Shown here: one piece after another, positions 3,756 to 28,067 of the stretch
How positions within the stretch are numbered: the first letter of the stretch is position 1
Layout: each line of letters opens with the position of its first letter
NCBI GenBank assembly: GCA_022072125.1
Contig: JAJVIH010000064.1
Location: 1-46,587, forward strand
Length of the DNA: 46,587 bases
Direction: 5' to 3'
From: Myxococcota bacterium
GTDB taxonomy: Bacteria > Myxococcota > JAJVIH01
The notes under the pieces: model-generated
Database searches by the model: none
What the model was told of the DNA's origin: nothing
Seen by the model: the letters and a program-made list of their open reading frames with translations, nothing else
Position numbers and translations under genes: made by a program

Positions 3756-3758
3756 CAG

Positions 3759-8048: not shown

Positions 8049-8172
8049 GAATGGTGCCTTCAAGGCTCCTTGAGTCTGACAATACCGGTAAGCCAGGGCG
8101 GGGGCATATTGCCCTGTCATCTGCAGCATCCTGGTCCGGAGTGCAAGAGCCGATGGATTTCCGGAGGTGGCA

Positions 8173-9039
8173 ATGAGTTTCTCAAAAGAAGTCGTTGATG
8201 CGGCACTCGTTGCCTCGGGACGCTGCTGTTGCATCTGCCACAAGTTCTGTGGCGTCAGGATCGAGACACACCACATTCGGCCTGTTTCAAAAGGGGGAGA
8301 CGATACCTTCGAGAACTGCATTCCCCTCTGTTTTGATTGCCACGCGGAGGTTGAACACTACAACGATCAGCATCCAAGAGGACGTAAGTTTTCCGAGAGC
8401 GAACTCCGGAAGCATCGTGACACATGGTTCTCGAAAGTCGAAGAGATGAATACGCTCACGCCGCCTCCCAGCGATTCGCCCCAGGTCATTCAGGCGGTTT
8501 CAGGAAATGGCAACATGGTTGCCGGGCGCGATTTGAACATTCGCACCGAACGGGTGGTCCGCAAGACGGTTGTTCAGACCGATCCGGGCGGCAAGCACAT
8601 TTCAAACACGACGGCCCGCAAAATCCAGGACCTGGTGAAGGATTATATCGATATCCACACGACGGCGGGCAAAGACACACAGCGAGCTGCGCAACGGATT
8701 TGGAGCAGCTTGAAAAACGAATTCAACGTGACCAGCTACAAGGAGATTCCCGCCCAGGATTCCGACCGTGCGATTCAGTGGCTTCAGGCTCAGGTCGCGA
8801 TGGCAAGACCCAAAATCCGCCGGAAAGCCCCTGGTAAATGGAAGGAGAGTCTATACAAGCCCATCTACGCACGCGCGGGCGAGCTTGGGATTTCCAAAGA
8901 CGACCTCTATCTGCTGGCGCAAGAGCGATTGGCCCTCAAGAAACCGATCCGATCCCTGAAGGAACTGACGCAGCGCGATCTTCAGCGGCTTCACCATGTT
9001 ATGATCTATGAAGTCAAGAAGTCCGGGAGCAAGCCATGA
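8173..9039 (+). CDS. HNH endonuclease domain protein with GRDLNI motif and helical C-terminal domain
   Basis: A 288-residue protein; the ATG at 8173 has GGAGG at 8163-8167, so I prefer it to the GTG six bases upstream. Residues about 15-60 form an HNH nuclease: a CCCICHKFC zinc knuckle, then ETHHIRPVSKGG, ENCIPLCFDCH. A linker contains GNGNMVAGRDLNI, a short motif I have seen in many bacterial conflict proteins of unresolved role. The C-terminal part (KEIPAQDSDRAIQWLQAQV) resembles the ORF6C domain of phage antirepressors, weakly. It lies 124 bp after the helicase on the same strand and may be a separately promoted accessory nuclease of the defence island. Missing membrane segments and signal peptide indicate a cytoplasmic protein. 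Confidence 0.82.
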   Translation: MSFSKEVVDAALVASGRCCCICHKFCGVRIETHHIRPVSKGGDDTFENCIPLCFDCHAEVEHYNDQHPRGRKFSESELRKHRDTWFSKVEEMNTLTPPPSDSPQVIQAVSGNGNMVAGRDLNIRTERVVRKTVVQTDPGGKHISNTTARKIQDLVKDYIDIHTTAGKDTQRAAQRIWSSLKNEFNVTSYKEIPAQDSDRAIQWLQAQVAMARPKIRRKAPGKWKESLYKPIYARAGELGISKDDLYLLAQERLALKKPIRSLKELTQRDLQRLHHVMIYEVKKSGSKP

Positions 9040-9203
9040 AATCTGGTGGTTGTCAGGCAGAGGGATGAAATCGAGGTCAACACCGCTTCCGGCCTACCGG
9101 AACGGCATGCTCTTTGATAACTCGTTGAATGATAAGCGCTTTCGGATTGACATCCGAACGGAGAACGGTTATGAAGAGGGTTGCACACGGGGAGCCATTT
9201 CTT

Positions 9204-9228
9204 CCTCGCTGCGAACTTCGCAGCGAGG
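9204..9228. repeat. Near-perfect 25-bp palindrome
   Basis: CCTCGCTGCGAA at 9204-9215 is exactly complementary to 9217-9228, with one central base. As RNA it would form a very tight hairpin just before the terminator at 9241. It could also be a protein-binding site. Confidence 0.75.
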
Positions 9229-9240
9229 GCCAGTTAACGG

Positions 9241-9278
9241 AGCCCCCCAGGTACATGCCTCGGGGGCTTCGTCTTTTT
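9241..9278 (+). terminator. Rho-independent terminator
   Basis: An 11-bp stem (9241-9251 with 9258-9268, one C-C mismatch) has a 6-base loop and is followed after five bases by TTTTT. It is about 200 bp downstream of the HNH gene and probably ends transcription of the defence operon or of a short transcript starting in the gap. Confidence 0.7.
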
Positions 9279-9336
9279 CCCGCTAAGTTCGCAGGGATTT
9301 GCGCGCTCGCGAGCACGTCGAGCGCCGGACCTGCGC

Positions 9337-9415
9337 TCGCGCAGAGAGCGCCGCAGGCGTGAAGAAGCGCGCGTGTCGAGGGCGCTCTGGACGGCGTTCG
9401 CGCAGAGAGCGCCGC
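9337..9415. repeat. Two copies of an 18-bp GC-rich direct repeat
   Basis: TCGCGCAGAGAGCGCCGC occurs at 9337-9354 and again at 9398-9415. The surrounding 9290-9480 is very GC-rich and full of CGCG steps, unlike the flanking genes. No reading frame here looks like protein. Confidence 0.6.
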
Positions 9416-9643
9416 GGGCGCGGCTCGGGCCACCAGGAGCCCGCGCGGGACCGCGTTCGCGCTCTCTCCTCGGTCCCGTCGGGAGACGGACGTTACACCC
9501 ATTCCAGAATAGAACTGACGACGGTTCTTCGTAGGTCTTGGATTTGCCGCTCCGATACGCCGCCATGCTTCTCAAATTTGCGGAATCATGGCTGGCGGGA
9601 AAGTTATTGACAACCCGCGATCCAATATTTACATTGCGCTCCG

Positions 9644-10042
9644 ATGGTTTTCCTGCGCGCCGTAATCTCTTTTGCTACTGCGGCACTGCTGCTGATTCAG
9701 GTGTTGGCGAGCCATCACCAAGCGCATCAGTTTCAACCAATACCCGGTCATGGCAAACAGGCGCTCCGTGCGGATTCTCTGGAGTGTTATTTTCAGGGAT
9801 CCGGGGGATCATCGCGAATATCCGGTTGGCAGCACTATTTTCGTGATCTTGAAGTAAATGATGGAGATGAAGATCCGCATATCTCCGGTTCTGGTTCTCC
9901 CGATCTTTTCATCAGGCGACTGCTCGACGAGCCGCATCATGCCGCGCCGGACGCTGTAAAGAATGAGATCGCGTCCTCCCTGCGGATTCATCCATCGCTG
10001 ATATATCTTCGTCTATCAAGACCGCGCGGACCTCCCGCCTGA
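9644..10042 (+). CDS. Possible small secreted protein, unrecognised
   Basis: A 132-residue frame beginning MVFLRAVISFATAALLLIQVLASHH, which reads like a signal peptide, followed by a polar region rich in Gly, Ser, Asp and His. I recognise no domain and see no good ribosome site, and the GC content is lower than in the flanking genes. It may be real, a remnant or chance. The rest of the 9279-10202 gap shows no convincing gene. Confidence 0.25.
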   Translation: MVFLRAVISFATAALLLIQVLASHHQAHQFQPIPGHGKQALRADSLECYFQGSGGSSRISGWQHYFRDLEVNDGDEDPHISGSGSPDLFIRRLLDEPHHAAPDAVKNEIASSLRIHPSLIYLRLSRPRGPPA

Positions 10043-10202
10043 CTCTTCCTCGTTTCAGAACGGCCGCTGTTTTGTAGTGGCTGACTTGTCTTGTCTCTTG
10101 GCGGTGGTGCGGAGCTCCATGCGCAACCGCCTGATCCACGCTCCATGTTAATAGTTTCCGCACGGAGATCTGCTTTCCGTGCGTCACAAGAGGTGCGCGC
10201 TC

Positions 10203-13200
10203 ATGGCTCGTACGGAGGAAAATCGTCTTGATTCCGGTGTTCCGCGAAACTATGCGGAGTTGCGCGAGCAAATTCATGCCATTGTAGAGCGTTGTTCATA
10301 CCTGTTGCCTGCGCAGGGACCGTTGGAGGTTTTTGTTCATCACAACACCCTGCATGCGTTGCAACATCTGCCCTTTCACGAGGCGCTCGGGGAAGCGAGG
10401 CGTATATGGGGAGCCGAGACGTACCTGAGCGAGGTCCAATACCGCGAAGCCCGGAATGCAGGAAGAATCCGGCAGGGCGATCTGGAAGAGGCGTTGCAGG
10501 AATTTGGTCCCGCGCCTCCTGAAATGCCAGCCACATTACCGCCCTCATTCGAGTGGGTGATGGCGATGATGTTGCATGGCGTCCAGTCTCCGCCGCCCGC
10601 CGTTGTGCGGTGGAGACTGGACGAGGAATTGGCGCGAAGCCGGTTTGCCCCGGGGGTGTCGCGCGAGGCCCGTTCGGCCATCATCCGCGACACATCCGAA
10701 TGGCTGAGCGGCCTGCTGGAGGGAGGCGAACCGGAGAAATTGGCGGCGATGATCTTTCCCGGCATATCCGCGGACGACGCGGTGAGGGAGTTTCATACGG
10801 TGATTGGCGCAAAGCCGGCCCGGCGGGGCTTCCGGGAGATGAAAAACAGCCAGGCGGAGGCGCTGGCAGTGGCGGCGTTGTGGGGAGCCTGCCAGAAATT
10901 GTCTTCCTCATCCCACGCTCCGGCTCCACGGCTGACGCCTGCCGCCAAGCTTCGCATCATTACCGGCGAAGACCCGGCGCATCTGGTCAATTTCCTGCTG
11001 ATTCCGTTGTGCGGGGCGTTTTTGGATCGTGGTCAAACCCACTGGCCCATGCCCGGCCGGGATAAGGGGCTGATCGAATGCTGGCTTCACCTCATATCCA
11101 GTGCGGATTGGACTGCCCCGGCCTGGATCGACGGACTGCGCGAGCGATTGATACAGTGGAAGGCCGGGGGCGGCCAAGCTGGAGAGTTGATTGTATCCAG
11201 CCTGGAATCGTTGGGAGTTTCTCCTGCCAGTGCGGAGCAGTTTATTCTGGATTCCCTCCTTCAGCTTGGCGGCTGGGCGGGTATGTTCAACCGGCTGGAG
11301 ACAGCGCCGGGGCCTATTGGCAGGACGCCTGCGAAAGTGCGTTTGCTGGATTTTCTGGCGGTGCGGCTGTTGCTGGATATCCACGCCTGGCGGGATGTCG
11401 CCCGCCGGTCAGGGTTCAGGGGAACAGACCTCGAACTGCTGGGCTGGATTGAATCCATGGCCGCGCGGCGCCAGCGGATGGGAAGATCCGGCGACCTGTC
11501 CTGGCCGCTGTTTATTCTCAGTCAGCACCTGGGGGTGTCCGCACCGAAGTTGCTTGCGCTTGACCAGGATGGCTTCCGGACGATTGAATCTCTGTTTGCG
11601 GTTTTCGGAGAGGCGGAGCGGCTCAAGATTTGGCACGAAGCCTATGAGCGCGGCTATCGCGATCCAGTGTTGGAGGGTGTCGCGGCGGCAGTCAAGACCC
11701 CCGCGCCGGAGGTCAGGGCGAAGTATCAGATCATCACCTGCATTGATGACCGCGAGGAATCATTCCGGCGCTATCTGGAGGAATTGTCCCCGGAGTGCCA
11801 GACCTTTGGGGCCGCCGGATTTTTTGGTCTCGCCATTGCTTTCCGGGGGCTAGACGATCCCGCCACCTTTCCCTTGTGTCCGGTGGTGCTTACGCCCCGG
11901 CATTTTATCGAGGAACTGCCTGTGGCCGGGCAGGATGGTCTTGCGGAACTCCGTCGCCAGCAACTGAGTCTGTGGGTGCGGATGAACGAGGCGTTCCGGA
12001 AGGGCGGCAGTTCGTTGGTGTGGGGTCCGGTGGTGACGGCTGTTGGCGGCATGATGGCGGCCATTCCGCTTTTGGCCAACGTATTTGCTCCCGGTCTGGC
12101 AGGCCGCCTGCGCAAGTGGGTTGCGGACCAGACCCCCCGTCCCGCGACGGTGTTGACAACACCCCGCGAAGAAGGTTGTGGAGCGGAATCGGATGGTCTC
12201 TTTCACGGATTCACGGTTGCGGAAAAAATCGAGCGCGTGGCCGCGTTGCTGGAGAACATCGGCCTGGTCAGGGATTTCGCTCCGCTAGTGGCCGTGCTCG
12301 GGCATACCTCGGAGACCGTGAACAACCCACATTTCGCCGCATATGCATGCGGGGCGTGCGGCGGACGCAGCGGCGGACCAAACGCCCGGCTGTTCGCCCG
12401 GATGGCCAACCGCCCGGAGGTGCGTGAAGGGTTGAAAAAGCACGGCATCCATATTCCGGATGACACTTGGTTTATCGGCGGGGTTCATGAAACCTGCGGA
12501 GACGCCATCGAACTGTTTGACGTGGAGGCTATTCCTCCGCGGTTTGCTTCCCATCTCGCCGGATTGCGCGGCCACCTGAATAGCGTGCGCCGGAACAACG
12601 CTCTGGAGCGCTGCCGCCGTTTCCATTCCGCGCGGCATATCCACACGCCGGGTGAAGCCCTGCGCCATGTGGAATCCCGTACTTTCGATTTGGCCCAGGC
12701 GCGTCCCGAACTGGGGCACGCCACCAACGCCGCGTGTATCGTGGGCCGGCGGGATTTGTCGCGGCGGCTGTTTCTGGACCGGCGGTCGTTCCTGGTCAGT
12801 TACGATCCTTCGATAGATCCGGAAGGACAAATTCTGGAGCGCATCCTCGCGGCGGTCGGTCCCGTGGGGGCGGGTATCAACCTCGAATACTTTTTTTCCG
12901 CTGTGGATAACGAGCGTTTCGGCGCAGGAACCAAGTTGCCCCACAATGTCACTGGCCTGTTTGGCGTGATGAACGGCGCCGCCAGCGATCTGCGGACCGG
13001 CCTGCCGCGGCAGATGATCGAAATTCACGAGCCCGTGCGGCTGCAACTGATTGTGGAAGCGGCGCCGGAAACCCTGTTGGCTATCTGCGAACGGCAGGCC
13101 GAACTGCGTGAGTTGACGGTCAATGAATGGATCAGGGTCATCTCGATTCATCCATCCACTAGGGAGTTCAATATCTTCATGGCTGGCAAAGGATTTATTC

Positions 13201-13328
13201 CCTGGCGCGGGGGCGGTGAAACCATTCCCCAGGCTGCGTCTTCGTCCGGATGGTTCATGGGGCGGCATGGTTTTCTCGCGCCAGCCCTGATTGGCGTTCA
13301 TCGTTCTGAAAGGAGCGATCATGCGTAA
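10203..13328 (+). CDS. dabA: Inorganic carbon transporter subunit DabA (DUF2309)
   Basis: A 1041-residue protein starting at ATG 10203, eight bases after AAGAGG. It is the cytoplasmic, carbonic-anhydrase-like subunit of the DAB (MpsAB) dissolved inorganic carbon pump, thought to hydrate CO2 vectorially using ion motive force through DabB. N-terminal VFVHHNTLHAL is typical of the family. The zinc site known from Halothiobacillus DabA (Cys, Asp, His, Cys) is present as C513 and D515 in TCIDDRE, H701 in VLGHTSE and C716 in YACGACGG. The 2- and 15-residue spacings within each pair match the characterised enzyme. It overlaps the next gene by 8 bp. Length is at the long end of the family, but no inserted domain was recognised. 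Confidence 0.95.
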   Translation: MARTEENRLDSGVPRNYAELREQIHAIVERCSYLLPAQGPLEVFVHHNTLHALQHLPFHEALGEARRIWGAETYLSEVQYREARNAGRIRQGDLEEALQEFGPAPPEMPATLPPSFEWVMAMMLHGVQSPPPAVVRWRLDEELARSRFAPGVSREARSAIIRDTSEWLSGLLEGGEPEKLAAMIFPGISADDAVREFHTVIGAKPARRGFREMKNSQAEALAVAALWGACQKLSSSSHAPAPRLTPAAKLRIITGEDPAHLVNFLLIPLCGAFLDRGQTHWPMPGRDKGLIECWLHLISSADWTAPAWIDGLRERLIQWKAGGGQAGELIVSSLESLGVSPASAEQFILDSLLQLGGWAGMFNRLETAPGPIGRTPAKVRLLDFLAVRLLLDIHAWRDVARRSGFRGTDLELLGWIESMAARRQRMGRSGDLSWPLFILSQHLGVSAPKLLALDQDGFRTIESLFAVFGEAERLKIWHEAYERGYRDPVLEGVAAAVKTPAPEVRAKYQIITCIDDREESFRRYLEELSPECQTFGAAGFFGLAIAFRGLDDPATFPLCPVVLTPRHFIEELPVAGQDGLAELRRQQLSLWVRMNEAFRKGGSSLVWGPVVTAVGGMMAAIPLLANVFAPGLAGRLRKWVADQTPRPATVLTTPREEGCGAESDGLFHGFTVAEKIERVAALLENIGLVRDFAPLVAVLGHTSETVNNPHFAAYACGACGGRSGGPNARLFARMANRPEVREGLKKHGIHIPDDTWFIGGVHETCGDAIELFDVEAIPPRFASHLAGLRGHLNSVRRNNALERCRRFHSARHIHTPGEALRHVESRTFDLAQARPELGHATNAACIVGRRDLSRRLFLDRRSFLVSYDPSIDPEGQILERILAAVGPVGAGINLEYFFSAVDNERFGAGTKLPHNVTGLFGVMNGAASDLRTGLPRQMIEIHEPVRLQLIVEAAPETLLAICERQAELRELTVNEWIRVISIHPSTREFNIFMAGKGFIPWRGGGETIPQAASSSGWFMGRHGFLAPALIGVHRSERSDHA

Positions 13329-14709
13329 TGGCGAATGGATCACGGCGTTGATCACCCTCTCTTTTGCCGCTCCCGCCGCGGCGGCGCTGGTCACGGGCGC
13401 CTTGATGGCGTGGGGAAGAACGCCTTCCGAAAAGGCCGTGACCAGGCTCACGCAATCCGCTCTGATGCTGTCCATGGTTGGCGTGGTCTCCGCCGCCGTG
13501 TTGTTCATCCAGCGGGGGATGACGCCATTTTCAGTGGATTATTTCACCTGGTATGAGGCAGGTGATCACGGCTTTCATATCCTTGCGCGGATTGATTTTA
13601 CCAATCTGACGTTCGCCATGCTCGCCGCGGTGCTGTTGTTGGCGACCGCCCGGTTTTCGTCGCTGTACCTGCATTATGAACCGGGGTTTATCCGTTTTCA
13701 TGCTCTCATGCTGGTGTTTGCGGCAGGCATGCAATTGATCGCTATTGGCGGTAATTATGAAATGTTGTTTGCAGGGTGGGAAATGGCCGGTCTGACCTCC
13801 GTGCTGTTAGTGGGTTTTTTTCATGAACGGAATGAGCCGCCGCGCTCCGCCATGCGCGTGCTGATCACCTACCGCATCTGTGACGTGGGTCTGCTCTTCG
13901 CTATGGGAATGATGCATTTGTTCGCCCATTCGACGGTGTTTGAGGAGGTGTTCAGCAAGGCGGATGGCGCGGCTTGGTCCTTGGCCGCCGCGGTGGGGCT
14001 GGTCTTTGCTTCGCTGGGCAAAGGCGCGCTCTTTCCAATGGGCGGCTGGCTGCCCCGCGCAATGGAAGGGCCAACCGCATCTAGCGCCATCTTTTACGGA
14101 GGGTTGTCTGTACATGCGGCCGTGTTCCTGTTGATCCGTTCCGCTCCGCTTTTCGCCGGACATTGGACGGTGCATGCGCTGATCGCCGGCGCTGGACTGA
14201 TCACTGTGGTAAGCGCCGCACTGGCCGGGCAAACCCGTCCCGACGCCAAAAGCTCGCTGGCGTGGGCGACCATCGCCCAAGTGGGGGTGATGTTTGTGGA
14301 GGTAGGACTGGGACTGAACTCGCTGGCGATGGCTCACCTCTGCGCCCACGCCCTGCTTCGTTACTATCAATTTTTGCGCGCCCCTTCCGCCTTGCAGGAT
14401 GCGCTGGCGCGCCGTACCCGGACATCCCTGGAAGGCCAGGCACAGGAATCTCCTTCCAGCAGCAGGTTGCGGCTGTTTGTATACCGGCTGGCGCTGGAAG
14501 GGTTCGGGGTCGAATCCGCGCTGGATCGTTGGATTGTACGGCCCTTTATTTCAGCGGCGCGCGCCATGGATCGCTTCGAGCGCCGGTGGATTGTTCGCGT
14601 GGGAGAGGCGGGAAGCCATTGGCTGGAGCCCCCCCATGAACAGCTTCCGCAACAAAAATCCGGCGGAGCAAGGGTGCATACGGCGTCCAATCAGGGAAGT
14701 GGGGAATAA
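13321..14709 (+). CDS. dabB: DabB, NuoL/ND5-like proton-conducting membrane subunit
   Basis: A 462-residue, strongly hydrophobic protein of the NADH-quinone oxidoreductase subunit L/antiporter family. Recognisable core sequences include GWEMAGLTSVLLVGFF, the ALFPMGGWLPRAMEGPTASSA segment around residues 235-255 and the LAHLCAHALLRYYQF-type helix. In DAB pumps this subunit lies in the inner membrane and couples cation flow to DabA. The ATG at 13321 lies within the end of dabA (8-bp overlap), and the next gene starts two bases after its stop, so all are co-translated. The C-terminus beyond about residue 365 is amphipathic and contains no recognised domain. No NADH-binding subunit of complex I is nearby, which argues for DabB rather than NuoL. 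Confidence 0.9.
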   Translation: MRNGEWITALITLSFAAPAAAALVTGALMAWGRTPSEKAVTRLTQSALMLSMVGVVSAAVLFIQRGMTPFSVDYFTWYEAGDHGFHILARIDFTNLTFAMLAAVLLLATARFSSLYLHYEPGFIRFHALMLVFAAGMQLIAIGGNYEMLFAGWEMAGLTSVLLVGFFHERNEPPRSAMRVLITYRICDVGLLFAMGMMHLFAHSTVFEEVFSKADGAAWSLAAAVGLVFASLGKGALFPMGGWLPRAMEGPTASSAIFYGGLSVHAAVFLLIRSAPLFAGHWTVHALIAGAGLITVVSAALAGQTRPDAKSSLAWATIAQVGVMFVEVGLGLNSLAMAHLCAHALLRYYQFLRAPSALQDALARRTRTSLEGQAQESPSSSRLRLFVYRLALEGFGVESALDRWIVRPFISAARAMDRFERRWIVRVGEAGSHWLEPPHEQLPQQKSGGARVHTASNQGSGE

Positions 14710-14711
14710 TA

Positions 14712-16229
14712 ATGGAACGGCTGGCCATATATTTGCCTTGCATCATTGCGGCGATTGGGGCGTCAGTCACGTTACGGCTGCAACCAGGCGAACGTGCGCG
14801 AATTGCTGGTGCGGCGTTCAGCGGGGCCGCCGGTATTGTAGGAGCATTGCTATTTATTTCCGCGGGAATTGCTCCATGGGAGCCTTTTGGAGCATCCGCC
14901 GCTTCACATTTGCGCGACTGTGGTCTGGACGGCCTGAACAGTGTGTTGCTGGTGTTGTGCCCAGCTTTGTCCGCGGCGGTGCTGATGGCGATACCCCGCG
15001 CCATGGTTCGTCCACGCGATGTCGCGGAGACGCTGATCAATCTCTCCTCCACGCTGGGATTCCTGGTGGCGAAAAATCCGTTGTTGTTGCTGTTGTTCTG
15101 GGTGGGAACGGCGTGGCCATTGCGGGCCCAGGCAGCCCGCTCGGGCAACCGGGTCTTCGCCGCCACGCTTAATATTGTCGTATTCGTGAGCGCGATTCCT
15201 CTCGCCATCGCACTTGCCGGAGCAGCGTATTTCACTTGGCAAGCCGGTGGAGATCCCTTCACTGTGGCGGCGTTTTCGACGCCCGCCGGCATGTCCTGGG
15301 TATCCGCATTTCTGTGGATCATGGCGCTGCTTCCCGTGTTCATGCGCATGGGGGTGTTTCCGTTCCACGGGTGGATCATTCTCTCCCTTGAGTCGGCGCC
15401 CGGACCCGTGGTGATTTCCACCGTGGCCTCACCTGCGGGAGCATTTGCCCTTGCACGGCTGACCCTTCAGCTCTTTCCCGATCTGGCGGCGGAAATGGCC
15501 TTCGCTTTGATCACGCTGAGCGCCGTCACTGCTGTCTACGGGGCCATTCTCGCTCTGTGTCAGTACGACCTTCGTTCCATGATCGGTTATATGTTGATCA
15601 GCAGCATGGGCTTCGCGGCTTCCGGTTTGTTCTCACTGGATCGGTCTGGAATGAGCGGCGCATTCCTGCACGAGATCGCCATGCTGCTGGGGTTTACCGG
15701 TCTGCTGCTCATGGTCTTTTCGGTGCAGGCGCGTACGGGCGCCGCTGATATCCGCCGGCTGGGCGGCTTGGTGCGCGGCGCTCCGCGCATGGCCACCGGC
15801 TTTCTGCTGCTCTCACTGGCGGTTTCCGGATTTCCCGGCGGCGCGGCGTTTGTCTCCGAAGACCTGATGATGCAGGGACTGATTGGCCAGCATCCCACCG
15901 CCATGTTGCTGCTGTTGATGGCGGGGGCCATGAATGGCGTGACTCTCTTTCGCGGTTGGAAGCGAACTTTCCTGGGTTGTTCCGCTCCCGGGGCGTGGCA
16001 TGGCGGGAGAGTATCCGATCTGACGCCTCGCGAGCGCTGGACATCCATCGTGCTCACCACACTGTTGGTCACCGGAGGCTTGGTTCCCGGTCCCGCGCTG
16101 ACGATCCGCGAAGGTGTGGTCAATGTGCTTCGCAACATCCATTCCACACAGACGGTTTCACATCCGTCATCCGCGTCCCGTACGGTCACTCGCGGCAAGG
16201 AGAATCTCCATGAGCGATCATCTCGATGA
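14712..16229 (+). CDS. Second NuoM/ND4-like membrane subunit of the dab operon
   Basis: A 505-residue polytopic membrane protein resembling complex I antiporter-like subunits (proton_antipo_M domain). Diagnostic stretches are FPFHGWIILSLESAPGPVV at about 217-235, LCQYDLRSMIGYMLISSMGF and SGFPGGAAFVSEDL. It starts 2 bp after dabB and overlaps sulP by 20 bp. Simple DAB systems need only one such subunit, so this looks like a second proton channel, or a subunit split from a larger one. The last 40 residues are Ser/Thr/Arg-rich and overlap the sulP ribosome site. Family membership is clear; its specific role in bicarbonate uptake is inferred from the operon. Confidence 0.85.
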   Translation: MERLAIYLPCIIAAIGASVTLRLQPGERARIAGAAFSGAAGIVGALLFISAGIAPWEPFGASAASHLRDCGLDGLNSVLLVLCPALSAAVLMAIPRAMVRPRDVAETLINLSSTLGFLVAKNPLLLLLFWVGTAWPLRAQAARSGNRVFAATLNIVVFVSAIPLAIALAGAAYFTWQAGGDPFTVAAFSTPAGMSWVSAFLWIMALLPVFMRMGVFPFHGWIILSLESAPGPVVISTVASPAGAFALARLTLQLFPDLAAEMAFALITLSAVTAVYGAILALCQYDLRSMIGYMLISSMGFAASGLFSLDRSGMSGAFLHEIAMLLGFTGLLLMVFSVQARTGAADIRRLGGLVRGAPRMATGFLLLSLAVSGFPGGAAFVSEDLMMQGLIGQHPTAMLLLLMAGAMNGVTLFRGWKRTFLGCSAPGAWHGGRVSDLTPRERWTSIVLTTLLVTGGLVPGPALTIREGVVNVLRNIHSTQTVSHPSSASRTVTRGKENLHERSSR

Positions 16230-17913
16230 ATCTTCTTACACATCCGGGGATGCGAGAGCCGGTGATAGGCCCACCGGCGGATTGGATGGGCTGAAAAAAT
16301 ACTATCGCCATGATCTGCTGTCCGGATTCCTGGTGTTCCTGGTGGCGTTGCCGTTGTGTCTGGGCATTTCCATGGCGTCGGGATTTCCGCCTGTTGCGGG
16401 CGTATTCACGGCTATCATCGGCGGTGTTCTGACGGGTTTGATCAGCAACTCCGAATTAACCATCAAAGGGCCCGCCGCTGGATTGATAGTGATCGTGTTG
16501 GGCGCGGTGACCGAATTGGGGCAGGGCGACCCGCAGCGAGGGTATCGGCTGGCGCTTGGAGTGGGTGTTGCGGCGGGAGTCATCCAGGTGTTGTTTGGCC
16601 TGTTCCGGTTTGGCCGGTTTTCAGAGTTTTTTCCGTTGGCCGCCATACACGGGATGTTGGCGTCCATCGGCGTCATCATCGCTTCCAAGCAGATTCATGT
16701 GATGTTGGGTGTTAAGCCGGAGGCCAAGGAGCCGCTTGGCCTGTTGGCGGAAATTCCCGCTTCAGTGGCGAAACACAATCCGGAGGTGGCGCTGATTGGC
16801 TTGGTTTGTCTCGCCATTCTCTTTATCCTTCCCAACCTGGGGTCGCCCAAGTTCCGCCGCATTCCCGGCCCCATGGTGGCGCTGGTGCTGGCCGTGCTGA
16901 TGGGAAAATACTTTGATCTGGAGCATGAGCATTTCTACTCCCTGGTTCCCCCTGATTACTTCCGCGTTGGTCCGGATTTTTTGGTGAATGTTCCCAAAAG
17001 CCTGTTCGATGCGATGGTGACGCCGGATTTTTCCGGCGTATTCACTCCGGTGGGAGTCAAATACATCGCGATGTTCGCGCTGGTGGGGTCCCTGGAGTCC
17101 ATGCTCAGCGCCAAGGCCATTGATCTGATCGATCCATGGAAACGGCAGACGGATTTCAACCGGGACTTGGCGGCTGTCGGTGTTGGCAACACCCTGGCCG
17201 CGCTGATCGGCGGCCTCCCCATGATTTCGGAAATCGTCCGCAGTTCCGCGAATATCGGAAATGGAGCCCACACACGCTGGGCCAATGTGTTTCATGGGCT
17301 GTTTCTGCTTGGTTTTGTCGCGCTGGTGCCCGGTCTGATTCACATGATTCCGCTTGCGGCTCTCGCCGCCATGCTGGTTTCGGTGGGATACCGGCTGGCT
17401 TCTCCCAGGGAGTTCGCCGCGACGATGCGCACGGGACCCGAACAACTGGTGGTTTTCACCACCACGCTTCTGACCACGCTGGCCACGGACTTGCTGATAG
17501 GTATCGCGGCTGGCATCGCCATGAAATTGCTGGTGCATCTCCTGTTCCACCGCGCCCCGCTGGACGTGATGTTCCGCCCGCAAGTGGTGGTGCAAACCCT
17601 GGACGAGGGAAAGGTTCGTATCCACATCAAAGGAGCCGCCGTTTTCAGCAACTGGCTTGGAATCCGGCACGTGCTCATGGCCCATGCGGAAACACCATAC
17701 ATCGAAGTGGAATTAAGCCAATGCCGGGTGGTGGACCATACCGTCCTCTCCAGACTGGATGATATCCGCCGTGACGCCGGAAACTCAGGCCGCAAACTGC
17801 TCATCACGGGTCTGGATAACCATCAACCCGTTTCGTCCCATCCTTTCGCGGCGCGAAAGGCGCGCGACCGCCGTGCAGATTTCTTGAGTCAAGGTTCGCC
17901 CGGAGAGGGTTGA
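16210..17913 (+). CDS. SulP-family anion transporter (probable bicarbonate)
   Basis: A 567-residue SLC26/SulP protein starting at ATG 16210 after AAGGAG at 16197-16202. The N-terminal region carries the family hallmark VALPLCLGISMASGFPPVAG, followed by about 12-14 hydrophobic segments (for example SELTIKGPAAGLIVIVLGA and LVGSLESMLSAKAIDL). The C-terminal 110 residues resemble a STAS-like domain (VRIHIKGAAVFSNWL, YIEVELSQCRVVDHT). SulP proteins carry sulfate, bicarbonate or other anions. Its position in an operon with dabA and dabB supports bicarbonate, in the manner of cyanobacterial BicA, although sulfate cannot be excluded. The gene ends inside one arm of a 13-bp inverted repeat. Confidence 0.92.
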   Translation: MSDHLDESSYTSGDARAGDRPTGGLDGLKKYYRHDLLSGFLVFLVALPLCLGISMASGFPPVAGVFTAIIGGVLTGLISNSELTIKGPAAGLIVIVLGAVTELGQGDPQRGYRLALGVGVAAGVIQVLFGLFRFGRFSEFFPLAAIHGMLASIGVIIASKQIHVMLGVKPEAKEPLGLLAEIPASVAKHNPEVALIGLVCLAILFILPNLGSPKFRRIPGPMVALVLAVLMGKYFDLEHEHFYSLVPPDYFRVGPDFLVNVPKSLFDAMVTPDFSGVFTPVGVKYIAMFALVGSLESMLSAKAIDLIDPWKRQTDFNRDLAAVGVGNTLAALIGGLPMISEIVRSSANIGNGAHTRWANVFHGLFLLGFVALVPGLIHMIPLAALAAMLVSVGYRLASPREFAATMRTGPEQLVVFTTTLLTTLATDLLIGIAAGIAMKLLVHLLFHRAPLDVMFRPQVVVQTLDEGKVRIHIKGAAVFSNWLGIRHVLMAHAETPYIEVELSQCRVVDHTVLSRLDDIRRDAGNSGRKLLITGLDNHQPVSSHPFAARKARDRRADFLSQGSPGEG

Positions 17914-20550: not shown

Positions 20551-21124
20551 CGTCCGCGCCATATGCCAGTCGGCTGCGGATCGAGACCGATCACGGCGTG
20601 CTCCCGGCGCTTTGTTCGGGGATGTGATCGTGTCCGCCAGCGAGCGGGCGCGGTCGCACGGCCGCCGGCTGGCCATGTGGTGCGCCGTTCGTCGAGAGCC
20701 TTCGCCCGGGCGATCAAGAACTCACCCCGGCGCGGATGCCGGAGATGTGCTGGGGACCTGTTGAACGCCGGCTACGGACGCTCCATGCTGGCGCTTGTCC
20801 GTCTACCAGGACATTGATAGCATTTTCTCGCATGCGAGTGGCCCCGATGACAGGATCGGGGCTTGGGTGCCGGTTGACGTCCTGGCGGATCATGTTGGCA
20901 TCGCCAAGGATTTGGTGTACCGTTTGAGTAATGCGAAGGGGCTGCTTGCGCGATCCCGTCAAGCAAAACACCACGAAAACAAGAAGCCATTGGCCCGATG
21001 AAAAGCAGTACTCGTCGTGTTCGACACGATTCCAGCGAGAGAATGCCCCAACCCGACCTTTGCAGTTGGGCGCAGTGGTCCCTAGTGGAGTGGTGTGGTT
21101 GGGATTTTTAGCAATGTGAGATCT
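20551..21124. other. Degenerate region with an HTH_17/excisionase-like fragment
   Basis: No intact gene is supported. At about 20850-20950 the plus strand reads WVPVDVLADHVGIAKDLVYR, a good match by eye to the helix-turn-helix of excisionase/MerR-like HTH_17 proteins, but there is no proper start and the tail (RSRQAKHHENKK) is not like the family. This looks like a broken small regulator. Other frames here are GC-driven and uninformative. Confidence 0.45.
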
Positions 21125-21433
21125 ATGCGATACATCAAGAGTATAATTGTCCCGTCCTTCGACCGTTTCATCGCTCCGCTGCTTCGGTTTCTTGTCGGCC
21201 GGGGAACGGTGGTTTGCTCCCGAGATGCTCACGAGGCCATCTCCTTCACGCTCATACTGACGGATGTGCTGTCTCTGGCGTTCGACGTCTCGCGCTTCTG
21301 CGGGAGTTGGTCACGCGCGAAGGCGCTCCTTGGATGGTCTCCTCGAGTGCCGCTTGCAGAGGACTTCGCACAGTTCATTGGCGAGTTCTGTCGCCTGTTC
21401 GAGCGCTCACGTCCGCAGGTGGGCACATTGTGA
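21125..21433 (+). pseudogene. Chimeric ORF ending in a sugar-epimerase C-terminal fragment
   Basis: The frame opens at ATG 21125 (MRYIKSIIVPSFDRFIAPLL). Its last third, RAKALLGWSPRVPLAEDFA then QFIGEFCRLF, closely resembles the extreme C-terminus of NAD-dependent nucleotide-sugar epimerases/dehydratases. The Rossmann and catalytic parts are absent. I read it as the leftover end of an epimerase gene that once lay upstream of the glycosyltransferase gene. It overlaps the next start by a few bases. Confidence 0.5.
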
Positions 21434-23781
21434 AGGTTGTCCAAGTCATCCACGGATATCCCATGCGGTATAACGCGGGATCGGAGATATACACGCAGAC
21501 ACTCTGCCACGGCCTAACCAAACGGCACGAGGTCCACGTCTTCACGCGCGAGGAGGATGCATTCGCGCCCGACTTCCGCTTGCGCACCGAACAGGATGAG
21601 GACGATCCGCGAGTGATGCTCCATATCGTCAACAATCCTCGGTTCAGGGACCGCTACCGCGCGACGGACATTGACCAGCGCTTCGCGGGGGTGCTCGACT
21701 GCGTAAAACCCGACATTGTGCATATCGGCCACCTCAACCATCTCTCGATCTCGCTACTTCGGGAGGCCGCGCTGCGGGATATCCCAATCGTCTTTACGCT
21801 CCACGACTACTGGTTGATGTGCCCACGCGGCCAGTTCATGCAAATGTTCCCGGAGGACCCGGCGAACCTCTGGGCGTCCTGCAGCGGGCAAGAGGACCGC
21901 AAGTGCGCGGAGTGTTGCTACGCCCGCTATTTCAGCGGCGCCCCTGACGAGCATACTGCCGACGTCAAGTATTGGACTGACTGGGTTTCTCGACGCATGC
22001 GCCACGTCCGCGAGATGGCCGCGCTTGTGGACATCTTCGTCGCTCCAGCGCGGTACCTCCACGACCGCTTCCGCGACGACTTCGGGCTCCCCGAGAGCAA
22101 GCTCGTATACCTCGACTACGGTTTTGCGCGCGAGCGCATGAGCGCGCGACAACGACCAACGGGAGAGCCCTTCACATTCGGCTACATCGGCACGCACATC
22201 CCTGCGAAGGGAATCCATGATCTCATTCGCGCTTTTGGGAAGGTCAGCGGAAACACGCGCCTTCGCATCTGGGGAAGGCCGCGAGGACAAAACACGGAGG
22301 CACTGCGGGACCTTGCCGGTTCTCTGCCTGCCAGCGTCGCGGAGAGAGTCGAGTGGTTGCCAGAGTACAAGAACCAAGAGATCGTCCGTGATGTCTTCGA
22401 CTGCTGTGACGCGATCATCGTCCCGTCCATCTGGGTCGAAAACTCGCCTCTCGTGATCCACGAGGCACAGCAGGCGCGGGTGCCGGTGATTACGGCGAAC
22501 GTCGGCGGCATGGCCGAATACGTGCGGCACGAGGTCAATGGCCTCCTCTTCGAGCACCGTTCCGTGGACGCCCTCGCCGAGCAGATGCAGCGACTCGCCG
22601 ATGACCCGGATTTCGCGGTGCGACTCGGAGCGCGCGGGTACCTGTTCAGTGAGTCGGGAGACATCCCCGACATAGACTCGCACGTACGCGACATCGAGAC
22701 ACTCTACAAGCAGGTGATCGGCCGCCATGCGTCTTCGCGGGTCGAGCGCCTCCCTGGACCGTGGCGCATCACCTTCGACACGAACCCCGATCTCTGCAAT
22801 CTGAGCTGCATCATGTGCGAGGAGCACTCGCCGCACAGTTCGCTCCATATCCGCCGTAAAGAGGAGGGGCGGGAGCGCCGGTTGATGCCATTCGAGATGA
22901 TCGAGCGCGTCGTGGCCGAAGCAGCGCCACGAGGCCTACGGGAGATCATCCCCTCGACGATGGGCGAGCCGCTCCTCTACGAGCAGTTCGAGGGCATCAT
23001 CGAACTCTGTCGGCGCTACGGTGTAAAGCTGAACCTCACGACCAACGGTACGTTTCCCCGGCTCGGCGCGAAGTCCTGGGCCGAACTCATTGTGCCCGTC
23101 GCCTCGGACGTGAAGATCTCGTGGAATGGCGCGACAAAGACGACCCATGAAAGCATCATGCTCGGCAGCCGCTGGGAGAAAGTGGTCGATAACGTTCGTG
23201 AGTTCATTGGCGTGCGCGACGCACATGCCGCCGCTGGTGGTCATCGTTGCAGGGTCACGTTTCAACTCACGTTCCTCGAGGCCAACGTTGATGAACTCGC
23301 CGCGATGGTGAGGCTCGCGATTGAACTCGGAGTAGACCGTGTGAAAGGCCACCATCTCTGGGCTCACTTCAACGAGATCCAGGACCAATCGATGCGACGC
23401 AGCCCCGAGTCCATCGCACGGTGGAATCTGGCCGTGCTTGCTGCTCGAGAGGTGGCGGTCGAGCGGCGCTTACCGAACGGGAAGCACATCCTTCTCGAAA
23501 ACATCTTCCTCCTCGGCGCTTCGGCGACTGAGGATCTCGCCCCGGGCGGGCCGTGCCCCTTCCTCGGCCAGGAGGCGTGGGTGAGCGCGCAGGGACGCTT
23601 CGACCCTTGCTGCGCCCCCGATGCGCAGCGTCGAACGCTGGGTGAGTTCGGCAACCTTAACGAGCAGAGCTTCATGGACATCTGGGACGGCGACAAGTAC
23701 CGCGAATTCACCGCGACGTACCGAAACCGCCGGCTCTGCCTCGGCTGCAACATGCGCAGGCCCACGGGAGGCGCCTCGTGA
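21430..23781 (+). CDS. Glycosyltransferase family 4 fused to radical SAM/SPASM-like enzyme
   Basis: A 783-residue two-domain protein; I choose the GTG at 21430 because homology-like sequence (VVQVIHGYPMRYNAGSEIYT) starts there. Residues 1-375 are a GT-B glycosyltransferase of GT4 type: FTLHDYWLMCPRGQ, FGYIGTHIPAKGIHDLI and the donor-site SIWVENSPLVIHEAQQARVP. Residues about 440-783 form a radical SAM domain with the [4Fe-4S] motif CNLSCIMC (C456, C460, C463), then TTNGTF and a C-terminal cysteine-rich part (C709, C727, C728, C770, C773) resembling SPASM auxiliary clusters. Such enzymes modify peptides or sugars by radical chemistry. It overlaps the WG-repeat gene (GTGA), so they are coupled. 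The substrate is unknown. Confidence 0.85.
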   Translation: MKVVQVIHGYPMRYNAGSEIYTQTLCHGLTKRHEVHVFTREEDAFAPDFRLRTEQDEDDPRVMLHIVNNPRFRDRYRATDIDQRFAGVLDCVKPDIVHIGHLNHLSISLLREAALRDIPIVFTLHDYWLMCPRGQFMQMFPEDPANLWASCSGQEDRKCAECCYARYFSGAPDEHTADVKYWTDWVSRRMRHVREMAALVDIFVAPARYLHDRFRDDFGLPESKLVYLDYGFARERMSARQRPTGEPFTFGYIGTHIPAKGIHDLIRAFGKVSGNTRLRIWGRPRGQNTEALRDLAGSLPASVAERVEWLPEYKNQEIVRDVFDCCDAIIVPSIWVENSPLVIHEAQQARVPVITANVGGMAEYVRHEVNGLLFEHRSVDALAEQMQRLADDPDFAVRLGARGYLFSESGDIPDIDSHVRDIETLYKQVIGRHASSRVERLPGPWRITFDTNPDLCNLSCIMCEEHSPHSSLHIRRKEEGRERRLMPFEMIERVVAEAAPRGLREIIPSTMGEPLLYEQFEGIIELCRRYGVKLNLTTNGTFPRLGAKSWAELIVPVASDVKISWNGATKTTHESIMLGSRWEKVVDNVREFIGVRDAHAAAGGHRCRVTFQLTFLEANVDELAAMVRLAIELGVDRVKGHHLWAHFNEIQDQSMRRSPESIARWNLAVLAAREVAVERRLPNGKHILLENIFLLGASATEDLAPGGPCPFLGQEAWVSAQGRFDPCCAPDAQRRTLGEFGNLNEQSFMDIWDGDKYREFTATYRNRRLCLGCNMRRPTGGAS

Positions 23782-24506
23782 ACTGGCGCACGTGGACAAT
23801 CAGTTGCGACGGCACACACCACGTCGATGAGCTGGGCGCGCCCGTCTATACTGAGCGGTTCGACGAGGTCCTGAAGTTCCACGAGCCGGGCCTCGCACCC
23901 GTGCGTCGCCACGGTCATGCATGGCATGTCCGGGCAGACGGTAGTGCCGCGTATGATCGGCGCTTCAAGCGGACGTTCGGATTCTACGAAGGCGTAGCTG
24001 CCGTCGCCGACTCCGATGGCTGGCGCCACATCAAGGCCGATGGGCAAGACGCCTATCACCAACTCTACGCGTGGTGCGGGAATTTCCAGGGCGGCCGGTG
24101 CCCCGTCCGTGAAAGCGACGGCTCATACTATCACATCGACATCAATGGCCGCCCGGCCTACCCGGCGCGCTGGCGCTATGCCGGCGACTTCCGCGACGGC
24201 TGCGCGGTCGTGCAGGCGGACCACGGATGCTCGACGCACATTGATCGGCACGGCGTGCTCCTCCACGATCGCTGGTTCGATGACCTTGACGTCTTCCACA
24301 AGGGCTTCGCGAGGGCGCGTGACGACGGCGGATGGATTCACATCGACATCAAAGGGTGCGCCGTCTACGCGCGCCGGTTCGCCGCCGTAGAGCCCTTCTA
24401 CAATGGGCAAGCCAGGGTCGAGCGCTACGACGGGGCGCTCGAGATCATCGACGAGAGTGGTATCGTCATCATTGAGCTTCGTCCCCCACAGGAGCGGCCT
24501 CGGTGA
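23778..24506 (+). CDS. WG-repeat (beta-propeller-like) protein
   Basis: A 242-residue protein built of about six repeats of roughly 36 residues, each with a core such as HIDINGRPAYPARW or HVRADGSAAYDRRF followed by a FYEGVAAVADSDGW-like strand. This matches the WG (KWG) repeat family, thought to form a beta-propeller or stacked beta structure for binding. No signal peptide is present. It begins with GTG within the stop of the radical SAM gene and ends in an overlap with the phosphatase gene (24503-24506), so it belongs to one operon. It may be a scaffold or the substrate of the upstream enzyme; neither is shown. Confidence 0.82.
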   Translation: MNWRTWTISCDGTHHVDELGAPVYTERFDEVLKFHEPGLAPVRRHGHAWHVRADGSAAYDRRFKRTFGFYEGVAAVADSDGWRHIKADGQDAYHQLYAWCGNFQGGRCPVRESDGSYYHIDINGRPAYPARWRYAGDFRDGCAVVQADHGCSTHIDRHGVLLHDRWFDDLDVFHKGFARARDDGGWIHIDIKGCAVYARRFAAVEPFYNGQARVERYDGALEIIDESGIVIIELRPPQERPR

Positions 24507-25078
24507 TTCCGAATAGTGAGCACTTCATCCTGTTTATCCGCCACGCCGAGCGCATGCCGTTGACCCAGGACGACCCCTTCGGCGATATCGATCTGACGCC
24601 GAGCGGCTATGCCGACGTCGCTCGTCTTGCCGCTGTGCTGCGCGGTCGCATCCACTGGACGGCAGCCAGTCCTTTCCTACGCTGCCGCGCCACAGCCAAG
24701 GGGCTCGGCTTCGAACCAGAGGAGGATACGCGCCTCGGAAGGCACGGCCCGTGGGTGATTGACGCCGACGCCGCAGGGCGGGAGTTCACCTCGCGAGGCA
24801 CTGAGGGCGTGGTTCGTGCCCAGGTCGCTCAAGTGCCGCTCCGAGGGATCCGTGGAGCTGAGGAGGCCGTCCCGCTCCTCCTGTCGGCCGGTCTCGAGCG
24901 CGCCCGGCTTGGATCCGGTGTCTGCGTCTCTCACGACACCGTACTGATGCCGGCCATGTCGTGGCTGTTTGGCGCTGACGCCGTTGACGAGTGGCTGGCG
25001 CCGCTCGGAGGCTTCGCTGTCGAACTCCGCCCAGGTGGTCCTGTCGCTGTCTGGCGCGACCGAGAGCGACGATGCTGA
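24503..25078 (+). CDS. Histidine phosphatase superfamily protein
   Basis: A 191-residue protein with the phosphoglycerate mutase-like RH motif at LFIRHAERMP (R13, H14, the phospho-histidine), SPFLRCRATA for substrate phosphate binding and the second catalytic-type histidine H144 in CVSHDTVLMP. The family removes phosphates from sugars, proteins or small metabolites. It starts with GTG overlapping the WG-repeat stop by 4 bp, the third link of a coupled operon. Here it may act on a phospho-sugar or on the product of the glycosyltransferase-radical SAM enzyme. The following 245 bp to 25323 hold no recognisable gene. Confidence 0.87.
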   Translation: MIPNSEHFILFIRHAERMPLTQDDPFGDIDLTPSGYADVARLAAVLRGRIHWTAASPFLRCRATAKGLGFEPEEDTRLGRHGPWVIDADAAGREFTSRGTEGVVRAQVAQVPLRGIRGAEEAVPLLLSAGLERARLGSGVCVSHDTVLMPAMSWLFGADAVDEWLAPLGGFAVELRPGGPVAVWRDRERRC

Positions 25079-26898: not shown

Positions 26899-26929
26899 TT
26901 GACATTAGTGCAGTGCGCGTGTTTTCTAT
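26899..26929 (+). promoter_or_regulatory. Candidate promoter of the TIR-like gene
   Basis: A consensus TTGACA (26899-26904) is followed 17-19 bases later by a poor -10 (TTTTCT or TTCTAT, 26922-26929). If used, transcription would begin almost at ATG 26937, giving a leaderless or nearly leaderless mRNA. Confidence 0.3.
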
Positions 26930-26936
26930 CTGGAGA

Positions 26937-28067
26937 ATGAATGACCTTCTCGACTATCTGGCTAATGCCAGGCAGCAATGTGAACGCGCCGCACAGCAAA
27001 TGAAGGCTGAGGATATCCTCGCCATCCAGCGGCGGCTCATGCGCGCCATTGAACAAGTTGGCCTCGCGTGGTCGGGGTCCTGTATCGGTTATCAAGCGCG
27101 CGTCTATATCAGGGACTTTCAGCGACCCGGTCCGGTGGATCGCTTCGACGACAATTGGAGATCGTACGCTCACCATCGCATAGGTCTTGGCTGGGTAGAA
27201 TACAACGATGACGAGGTGAAGGACCACGTCAATCAATTGGCGGAGGTCCCGGAGGAGGATTGGCAGCGCATCAAGACCACGGCGGCTTCTGCCGCTGCGG
27301 TCTTCAGCGCCGTGCAGAGCGAGATCGTACCGACGCTCGATGCGGTTCTCGCTGAATATGATGACGAGAGAATAAGGGAAAAGCGCAATGATATTGCCAG
27401 ACTGAAGAGCTATCATAATATGCCCGATATTGCAGAGAAATTACAAAAAACTCAATACATGATGAAAACTAGTGACTTGAACGCACTGAAGGAAGGCTGG
27501 CGAATCCCACCCCATATTCGGATGAAAGCGGATCTCGATGAACAATTCTCCTACGGCAAGCAAGTAGAGGAACTCGCAAAGGAGATCCGATATATCTTCA
27601 CTTACCTGAAACAGCGGCAACAGACGAAGGGCAAGTTGGCCGTGCGCACGGACGGAAAGATATTCATTGGACACGGCCAGTCAAAGGTGTGGCTTGAACT
27701 CAAAAACTTCGTCCAGGATGATCTTCATCTCCAGTATGAGGAGTTCAACCGGGAGCCGCCGGCCGGCAAAGCCACCAAGGAACGGTTGGAGGAAATGCTC
27801 GGCGCTTCGTCCTTCGCGTTCCTGGTAATGACCGCCGAGGATGAGACCGCTGACGGGAAACTACAGGCCCGGGCCAACGTGATCCACGAAATCGGACTGT
27901 TCCAGGGGCGACTTGGGTTCAATCGCGCGATCATGCTGCTCGAAGAGGGATGCGAGGAGTTTTCGAATATCACCGGCATCAATCAAATCCGGTTCCCAAA
28001 GGGAAATATCAGGGCAATATTCGAGGAAATCCGCCGCGTGCTTGTGCGGGAGAAAATTCTTCCCTGA
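26937..28067 (+). CDS. TIR-like (PF10137-type) predicted NAD-cleaving effector
   Basis: A 376-residue protein from ATG 26937 (GTG 26913 would add eight residues; the only ribosome-like site, GGAG, is too close, so the start is uncertain). The last 140 residues match the TIR-like nucleotide-binding domain of Cap12/PF10137 proteins: GKIFIGHGQSKVWLELKNFV, SSFAFLVMTAEDE and NVIHEIGLFQGRLGFNRAIM, with the likely catalytic glutamate E318. Residues 1-230 are helical and unrecognised; FDDNWRSYAHHRIGLGWVEY may form a sensor region. Related domains destroy NAD+ in CBASS and other antiphage systems. No cyclase or STING gene is adjacent, so it may act alone. The base composition is lower in GC than the flanks, suggesting transfer. 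Confidence 0.8.
   Translation: MNDLLDYLANARQQCERAAQQMKAEDILAIQRRLMRAIEQVGLAWSGSCIGYQARVYIRDFQRPGPVDRFDDNWRSYAHHRIGLGWVEYNDDEVKDHVNQLAEVPEEDWQRIKTTAASAAAVFSAVQSEIVPTLDAVLAEYDDERIREKRNDIARLKSYHNMPDIAEKLQKTQYMMKTSDLNALKEGWRIPPHIRMKADLDEQFSYGKQVEELAKEIRYIFTYLKQRQQTKGKLAVRTDGKIFIGHGQSKVWLELKNFVQDDLHLQYEEFNREPPAGKATKERLEEMLGASSFAFLVMTAEDETADGKLQARANVIHEIGLFQGRLGFNRAIMLLEEGCEEFSNITGINQIRFPKGNIRAIFEEIRRVLVREKILP

Follow-up and report, generated by a model that had tools for sequence, protein, structure and literature searches.

The GT4–radical SAM operon of the window

The window, that is, the whole stretch of 46,587 nucleotides analysed here, carries three overlapping genes on its forward strand. 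The first (21430-23781, GTG to TGA) comprises 783 codons in a single open frame and encodes a GT4 glycosyltransferase joined to a radical SAM enzyme. The second (23778-24506, GTG start) encodes a WG-repeat protein of 242 aa, and the third (24503-25078, GTG start) a histidine phosphatase of 191 aa. A three-gene operon with 4-bp overlaps had been described in the original prediction, and its coordinates and frames were exactly right: in the ORFs of the window, the fusion/WG and WG/phosphatase junctions are each 4-bp GTGA overlaps. The window genome contains a single copy of this operon.

When the operon epimerases of relatives were used as queries in tblastn, a remnant of the NAD-dependent sugar epimerase of the operon was found directly upstream. 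It is a degenerate C-terminal stub (21107-21433, forward strand), with 21281-21388 as its best-preserved part. The stub matches the epimerase of locus L044 (67% over 33 aa, E 1e-8) and that of L040 (34% over 88 aa, E 8e-9), and its stop codon and the GT4 start share 4 bp, the same type of overlap as at the other junctions. The remainder of the epimerase and all operon parts above it are gone. The window genes are thus a shortened, 5'-truncated copy of a larger, horizontally spread biosynthetic operon.

Comparison of the window copy with its relatives gave dN/dS values of 0.07-0.10 for the fusion, 0.11-0.21 for the WG gene and 0.15-0.18 for the phosphatase gene, and the fusion deviates at 7 of the 348 columns that are highly conserved in its family (family median 6). 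All three genes are under purifying selection and are not degenerate. A decaying pseudo-operon is therefore unsupported for these genes, even though the 5' end is truncated. As the window copy has no intact epimerase, 5' RNA or methyltransferase, it may no longer yield the same product as the full operon.

Recurrence and spread of the operon

Using the radical SAM half as query, we scanned 84,980 species genomes and kept the best 80 of 183 relatives (61-83% identity). Together with loci from prior searches and the window, these gave 85 loci, which were mapped with seed proteins; L030 and L022 represent one contig, which leaves 84 distinct loci. All 85 loci carry a WG gene downstream of their radical SAM gene, and the two are directly adjacent except in three cases (L026 and L028, which have an insert, and L046, which has a 4.6-kb gap). 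GT4 is found upstream in 83 loci, and the contig ends there in the other two. An O-methyltransferase accompanies the core in about 60 loci, a histidine phosphatase in about 59, an upstream sugar epimerase in about 46 and a nucleotidyltransferase-like domain in 25. The order of the full operon is epimerase–GT4–radical SAM–WG–O-methyltransferase–phosphatase–nucleotidyltransferase, in which GT4–radical SAM and WG, in part with the epimerase, form the constant core and the tailoring genes vary. The gene families do co-occur in other genomes, as had been suggested for checking, and the presence of WG at every locus rules out chance neighbours. The trio that had been taken for the system recurs, but it is not the whole pathway, being the shortened form of a larger operon.

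The carriers fall into about nine phyla (Myxococcota, Pseudomonadota with several classes, Chloroflexota, Planctomycetota, Cyanobacteriota, Verrucomicrobiota, Nitrospinota, Gemmatimonadota and Thermodesulfobacteriota), many of the genomes being MAGs, whose taxon labels can be wrong. Azospira oryzae DSM 21223 (L061) and Halomonas sp. 25-S5 (L029) are examples of culturable bacteria with the canonical operon. In a tree built from the radical SAM halves, the window groups with a Polyangiaceae MAG, beside Halomonas and Pseudodesulfovibrio, and apart from L023 and L024, the copies of Myxococcaceae. Fitting the phylum labels to this tree takes 21 changes, compared to a minimum of 8. The operon has apparently spread horizontally between very different bacteria. 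Its three core parts appear to travel together, as indicated by their concordant distances: Mantel r was 0.72 for GT and radical SAM, 0.71 for radical SAM and WG, and 0.77 for GT and WG, and 0 of 999 permutations reached such values. In the Paludibacterium operon (L078, about 7751-13324), several genes are frameshifted, which reflects either sequencing error or decay.

The open-access papers searched (subscription journals and preprints were outside the scope) contained no description of a WG repeat with a radical SAM enzyme, of a GT4–radical SAM fusion or of the peptide motif reported below. This agrees with the earlier statement that no described system with this trio was known. The component domains are known; what is new, as far as the searches made have shown, is the fusion, the WG protein as a constant partner and the distribution. 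Conservation over about nine phyla without a described product points to a common but unstudied natural product or glycan modification.

GT4 and radical SAM domains in a single polypeptide

The GT4 domain occupies residues 1-425 of the fusion (21430-22704, forward strand; PF00534/PF13439). Glycos_transf_1 (PF00534) scores 94 bits against a Pfam cut-off of 26.4, the E-x7-E motif (E337/E345) is invariant in an alignment of 57 fusions, and a Foldseek search with the model returned MshA/BshA-type retaining transferases. Assignment to GT4 follows from the Pfam domains above cut-off together with this motif. The radical SAM domain with its C-terminal twitch domain covers residues 441-783 (22750-23781, forward strand; PF04055, PF13186). 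Radical_SAM (PF04055) scores 49 bits against a cut-off of 29.5 and the Pfam SPASM model 45 bits. The cysteines of the cluster motif C456-x3-C460-x2-C463 (CNLSCIMC) are invariant in the 57 fusions, and this CxxxCxxC motif and PF04055 place the protein in the radical SAM superfamily. A sugar transferase and a radical SAM enzyme within one polypeptide, as predicted, are therefore present, both in a single open frame and both above the Pfam cut-offs.

Could the fusion be an annotation artefact of two genes? This is ruled out by the single frame, by purifying selection and by the relatives: the two domains share one frame in 67 of the 83 loci having both, joined by a linker of 45-81 bases, mostly 45-54. 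Mean column identity of the fusion is 74% over 783 residues. The question whether the domains are found apart in other genomes has a divided answer, because most are fused but 16 loci, mostly from Chloroflexota and Arsenophonus plasmids and including one frameshifted copy, have them separate; two loci are undecidable. The prevalence of the fused form suggests that the two halves catalyse consecutive steps.

The C-terminal cysteines of the radical SAM half had been likened to those of SPASM clusters. Only C709, C727, C728, C770 and C773 are invariant among them in the 57 fusions, and four of them form the pattern C709-x17-C727-x42-C770-x2-C773. Despite the Pfam SPASM match, this pattern suffices for one auxiliary cluster, and a two-cluster SPASM domain with its seven C-terminal cysteines was rejected. 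BtrN, the 2-deoxy-scyllo-inosamine dehydrogenase of butirosin biosynthesis, acts on an aminocyclitol and has a twitch domain with one auxiliary [4Fe-4S] cluster. In an hmmsearch against the BtrN structures (4m7s/4m7t), the auxiliary cysteines of the window protein aligned with the auxiliary-cluster region, and four of them have the BtrN spacing, which would make the domain a BtrN-type twitch. The match is limited to the C-terminal domain (E 0.0025), and BtrN, in contrast to the window protein, is not fused to a glycosyltransferase. Our data thus fit a BtrN-like twitch domain with one predicted auxiliary cluster better than the SPASM type.

The curated radical SAM models closest by score are those of peptide or metalloenzyme maturases. 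SPASM/twitch maturases (TIGR04317, ScmF, SuiB) gave the best HMM scores, and the peptide enzyme SuiB was also among the fold matches (Foldseek). The window protein is nevertheless far below the curated cut-offs (73 bits for TIGR04317, where 380 are needed), and it has cysteines for one auxiliary cluster only. Identity with BlsE was also rejected: its model (TIGR04466, >400 bits needed) is outside the 25 best NCBIfam families, the lowest of which scores 23 bits. A role as a defence system was dismissed, since PADLOC gave nothing beyond a weak similarity of the radical domain to viperin. More distant forms of the radical SAM half (L167:8326-9798 and L169:8053-9495; 47-49% identity), which belong to the Myxococcota family f13, stand alone and have no GT4 or WG neighbours.

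The WG-repeat protein as a putative scaffold

WG_beta_rep (PF14903) matches the second gene product with 44.3 bits, above the gathering threshold of 25.6. Each repeat, about 35 residues long, contributes one histidine that is invariant across 66 sequences, giving six in total (H15, H50, H84, H119, H154 and H188). From an alignment that excluded one row of plasmid origin, AlphaFold predicts a compact beta-propeller (pLDDT 96.5) without a disordered acceptor tail, and the model matches BamB and designed propellers in Foldseek with TM 0.5-0.6; a sequence search against solved structures yielded nothing useful. The regular repeat protein that had been predicted is thus borne out by the family match, the histidine pattern and the modelled fold.

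We considered whether the WG protein could serve as carrier or substrate itself, its repeats being glycosylated and radically modified by the fusion. It always adjoins the fusion, and its invariant residues are very regularly spaced with one histidine per repeat. However, in relatives the WG domain forms the N-terminus of catalytic proteins, namely an O-methyltransferase (58 loci), a class II aldolase or a P-loop kinase, an arrangement typical of scaffolds. These fusions, along with the compact propeller without an acceptor tail, favour a binding scaffold as the more likely role, and we regard modification of the WG protein as very improbable. The WG repeat family would thereby gain a testable role as a biosynthetic scaffold.

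Phosphatase and accessory genes

The third gene had been predicted to encode a phosphatase, and its product matches His_Phos_1 (PF00300) with 29.9 bits against a gathering threshold of 21.7. The RHA and SHD motifs are both present and place it in branch 1; the activity is a prediction. It is 66-72% identical to the phosphatases of L082 and of the variant operons L057, L065, L067, L068 and L079. In these variants, the phosphatase gene lies between a WG-aldolase gene and a gene for a NodU-like carbamoyltransferase, followed by more radical SAM genes. Across the operons, phosphatases of unrelated folds occur (His_Phos, Y_phosphatase3 and a sulfatase fold), so that dephosphorylation itself seems to be important.

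Several accessory enzymes are of a type that acts on sugars, including the GalE-like epimerase, the NodU-like carbamoyltransferase and the class II sugar-phosphate aldolase. Others are the O-methyltransferase and a 2OG dioxygenase. Such a variable set, providing O-methylation, carbamoylation, dephosphorylation, aldol chemistry and 2OG-dependent hydroxylation, is what is expected for the decoration of a sugar-containing small molecule. The operon could instead decorate a cell-surface polysaccharide or lipopolysaccharide, the fusion adding and oxidising a glycan sugar that is then O-methylated, carbamoylated and trimmed of phosphate. Glycan loci often contain GT4 enzymes and GalE-like epimerases, NodU-like carbamoyltransferases act on sugars, and the phosphatase has a weak match to PmrG. 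Yet no flippase, polymerase or ligase was found among the recurrent neighbours, and the operon is compact and crosses phyla. We consider surface decoration quite unlikely.

Structured RNA and small ORF upstream of the operon in relatives

In at least 20 loci, a small ORF of about 55-95 aa with the motif DNRANQLNPxxxxYxxSRG, sometimes present twice, lies just upstream of the operon. A search of 21 operon genomes for this ORF gave a strong match in 14, each at the operon, and a weak match in one. Directly before the small ORF is a structured, strongly covarying RNA of about 190 nt. In L027, the RNA covers 2880-3067 and the small ORF 3073-3318; a similar arrangement was seen in L026, L033, L037, L040, L059, L061, L072-L076, L078 and others.

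An alignment of the RNA from 19 loci shows changes on both sides in 26 of 35 pairs. Pairing was observed in 91.5% of cells, compared to 76% after shuffling (0 of 500 shuffles reached the observed value) and 33-44% when slid, the slide control being biased in favour of the structure because this was read from the same 19 sequences. A recount on 31 matches aligned to the model, an alignment that leans towards it, gave 92.0% against 70.8%. The covariance model also found members outside the set from which it had been built (L074 with 126 bits, L061 with 111, L078 with 93, L038 with 91 and L075 with 59). The Shine-Dalgarno sequence GGAGC is complementary to a conserved GCTCC segment, with which it can pair, and matching changes occur in L033 and L060. 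In the 13 operon genomes searched, the RNA occurs once each. Rfam 15 gave no match at the gathering threshold in L026, L029, L037, L038 or the window, and none at E<=1 in the L027 region. A search of the window genome found neither this RNA nor the small peptide gene, and the core of the RNA element was not found in viral contigs. A search of 195 Myxococcota genomes with the RNA model gave no match; with its strict filters and no known positive shown in the set, it is a weak test. Judged by covariation, the element is a candidate for a new regulatory RNA, and its ligand, if there is one, may reveal the product of the operon.

These features raise the possibility of a new RiPP pathway, in which the small DNRANQLNPxxxxYxxSRG protein would be the precursor, GT4 would glycosylate it, the radical SAM half would modify it and the WG protein would recognise it. 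The position of the small ORF with its sometimes duplicated motif, its location at the operon in each of the 14 genomes with a strong match, the dedicated RNA with its Shine-Dalgarno complementarity and the scores of the radical SAM half to peptide maturases are all consistent with this idea. On the other hand, the twitch domain resembles that of BtrN, there is no copy of the small ORF in the window or its genome, and it is also missing from the genomes of L029 and L032, whose canonical operon is complete. Furthermore, the motif occurs without an intact operon in five of the eight motif-bearing Myxococcota genomes, once inside a longer, apparently secreted protein. Taken together, a RiPP pathway is possible but rather unlikely. 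Slightly less probable again is the more specific proposal that the full operon represents a new class of peptide modification, with a ribosomally made peptide that bears the Asn-rich DNRANQLNP motif, a new riboswitch-like RNA controlling it, and one bifunctional enzyme on a WG propeller that would first glycosylate and then radically rearrange it. The longer protein (L163:310-855), from a genome without the operon, carries tandem NRSNQLNPNNSAF motifs like those of the operon peptide.

A proposed glycoside-editing pathway

With a little better than even confidence, we lean towards a biosynthetic operon, horizontally spread and 5'-truncated in the window, in which GT4 makes a glycoside that is reworked by the fused radical enzyme, while the WG protein acts as a scaffold. 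The epimerase would make an NDP-sugar; with this enzyme lost, the window copy would depend on a donor from another source within the cell. The GT4 half would transfer the sugar of this NDP-sugar onto a small acceptor. The radical SAM half would then abstract a hydrogen from the new glycoside, which would be dehydrogenated, decarboxylated or epimerised, in the manner of BtrN on an aminocyclitol and of BlsE on cytosylglucuronic acid. The WG propeller may bind the substrate or the enzyme complex and hand over to the tailoring enzymes, which are often fused to WG, and the phosphatase would take off a phosphate at a late step.

The proposal that the fusion both makes and radically edits a glycoside draws on the variable sugar-tailoring genes and on a precedent from blasticidin S biosynthesis, where the cytosylglucuronate synthase BlsD is followed by BlsE, a radical SAM decarboxylase acting on the transferred sugar (PMC3715490). 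The sequence of a transferase and then a radical SAM enzyme on a glycoside is the same, and the CxxxCxMC motif of BlsE corresponds to CNLSCIMC in the window protein (PMC3715490). In contrast, BlsD and BlsE are two separate proteins with no WG partner described, and the window protein falls below the BlsE model. The original prediction of a pathway combining glycosylation and radical modification fits these results well; of the two targets it had offered, a sugar-linked product is favoured over a carrier repeat protein. Through a natural GT4–radical SAM fusion, a reaction that edits glycosides in two steps would become directly accessible.

A similar set of genes is found on the plasmids CP132902, CP132904 and CP132908 of Arsenophonus louse-fly symbionts, where epimerase, GT4, radical SAM and WG-methyltransferase follow in the same order with 45-55% identity. 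Here, however, GT4 and radical SAM are two genes, and PhyH and SHMT-like genes follow. The genome of the symbiont is <1 Mb (PMC10654098), and retention of the GT4 and radical SAM genes in a genome of this size hints at a useful product. The split GT4 and radical SAM pair (L021:7828-10196, CP132904.1) is unannotated in its record, and the Arsenophonus plasmids also carry panBCE.

Other features of the window

A partial defence island at 23-8048 comprises the C-terminal part of PglZ, BrxA, a PglX/DUF1156-type DNA methyltransferase and a DpdJ-like helicase, and resembles a BREX-type locus truncated where the window begins. The gene at 39809-41914 encodes a reverse transcriptase (PADLOC RT_UG19, E 3.7e-138) and is a candidate for DRT defence. 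The protein encoded at 26913-28067 has a TIR effector-like domain at its C-terminus (PADLOC TIR effector, PycTIR; E about 1e-12 to 1e-15). The ORFs on either side of this gene encode the same peptide, LKERLGPWDVVKTDLQEERH, which suggests a direct repeat flanking it. Finally, the region 10179-17913 contains the inorganic-carbon transporter DabA (PF10070, 768 bits), adjoined by an apparent DabB-type membrane subunit and a SulP transporter.
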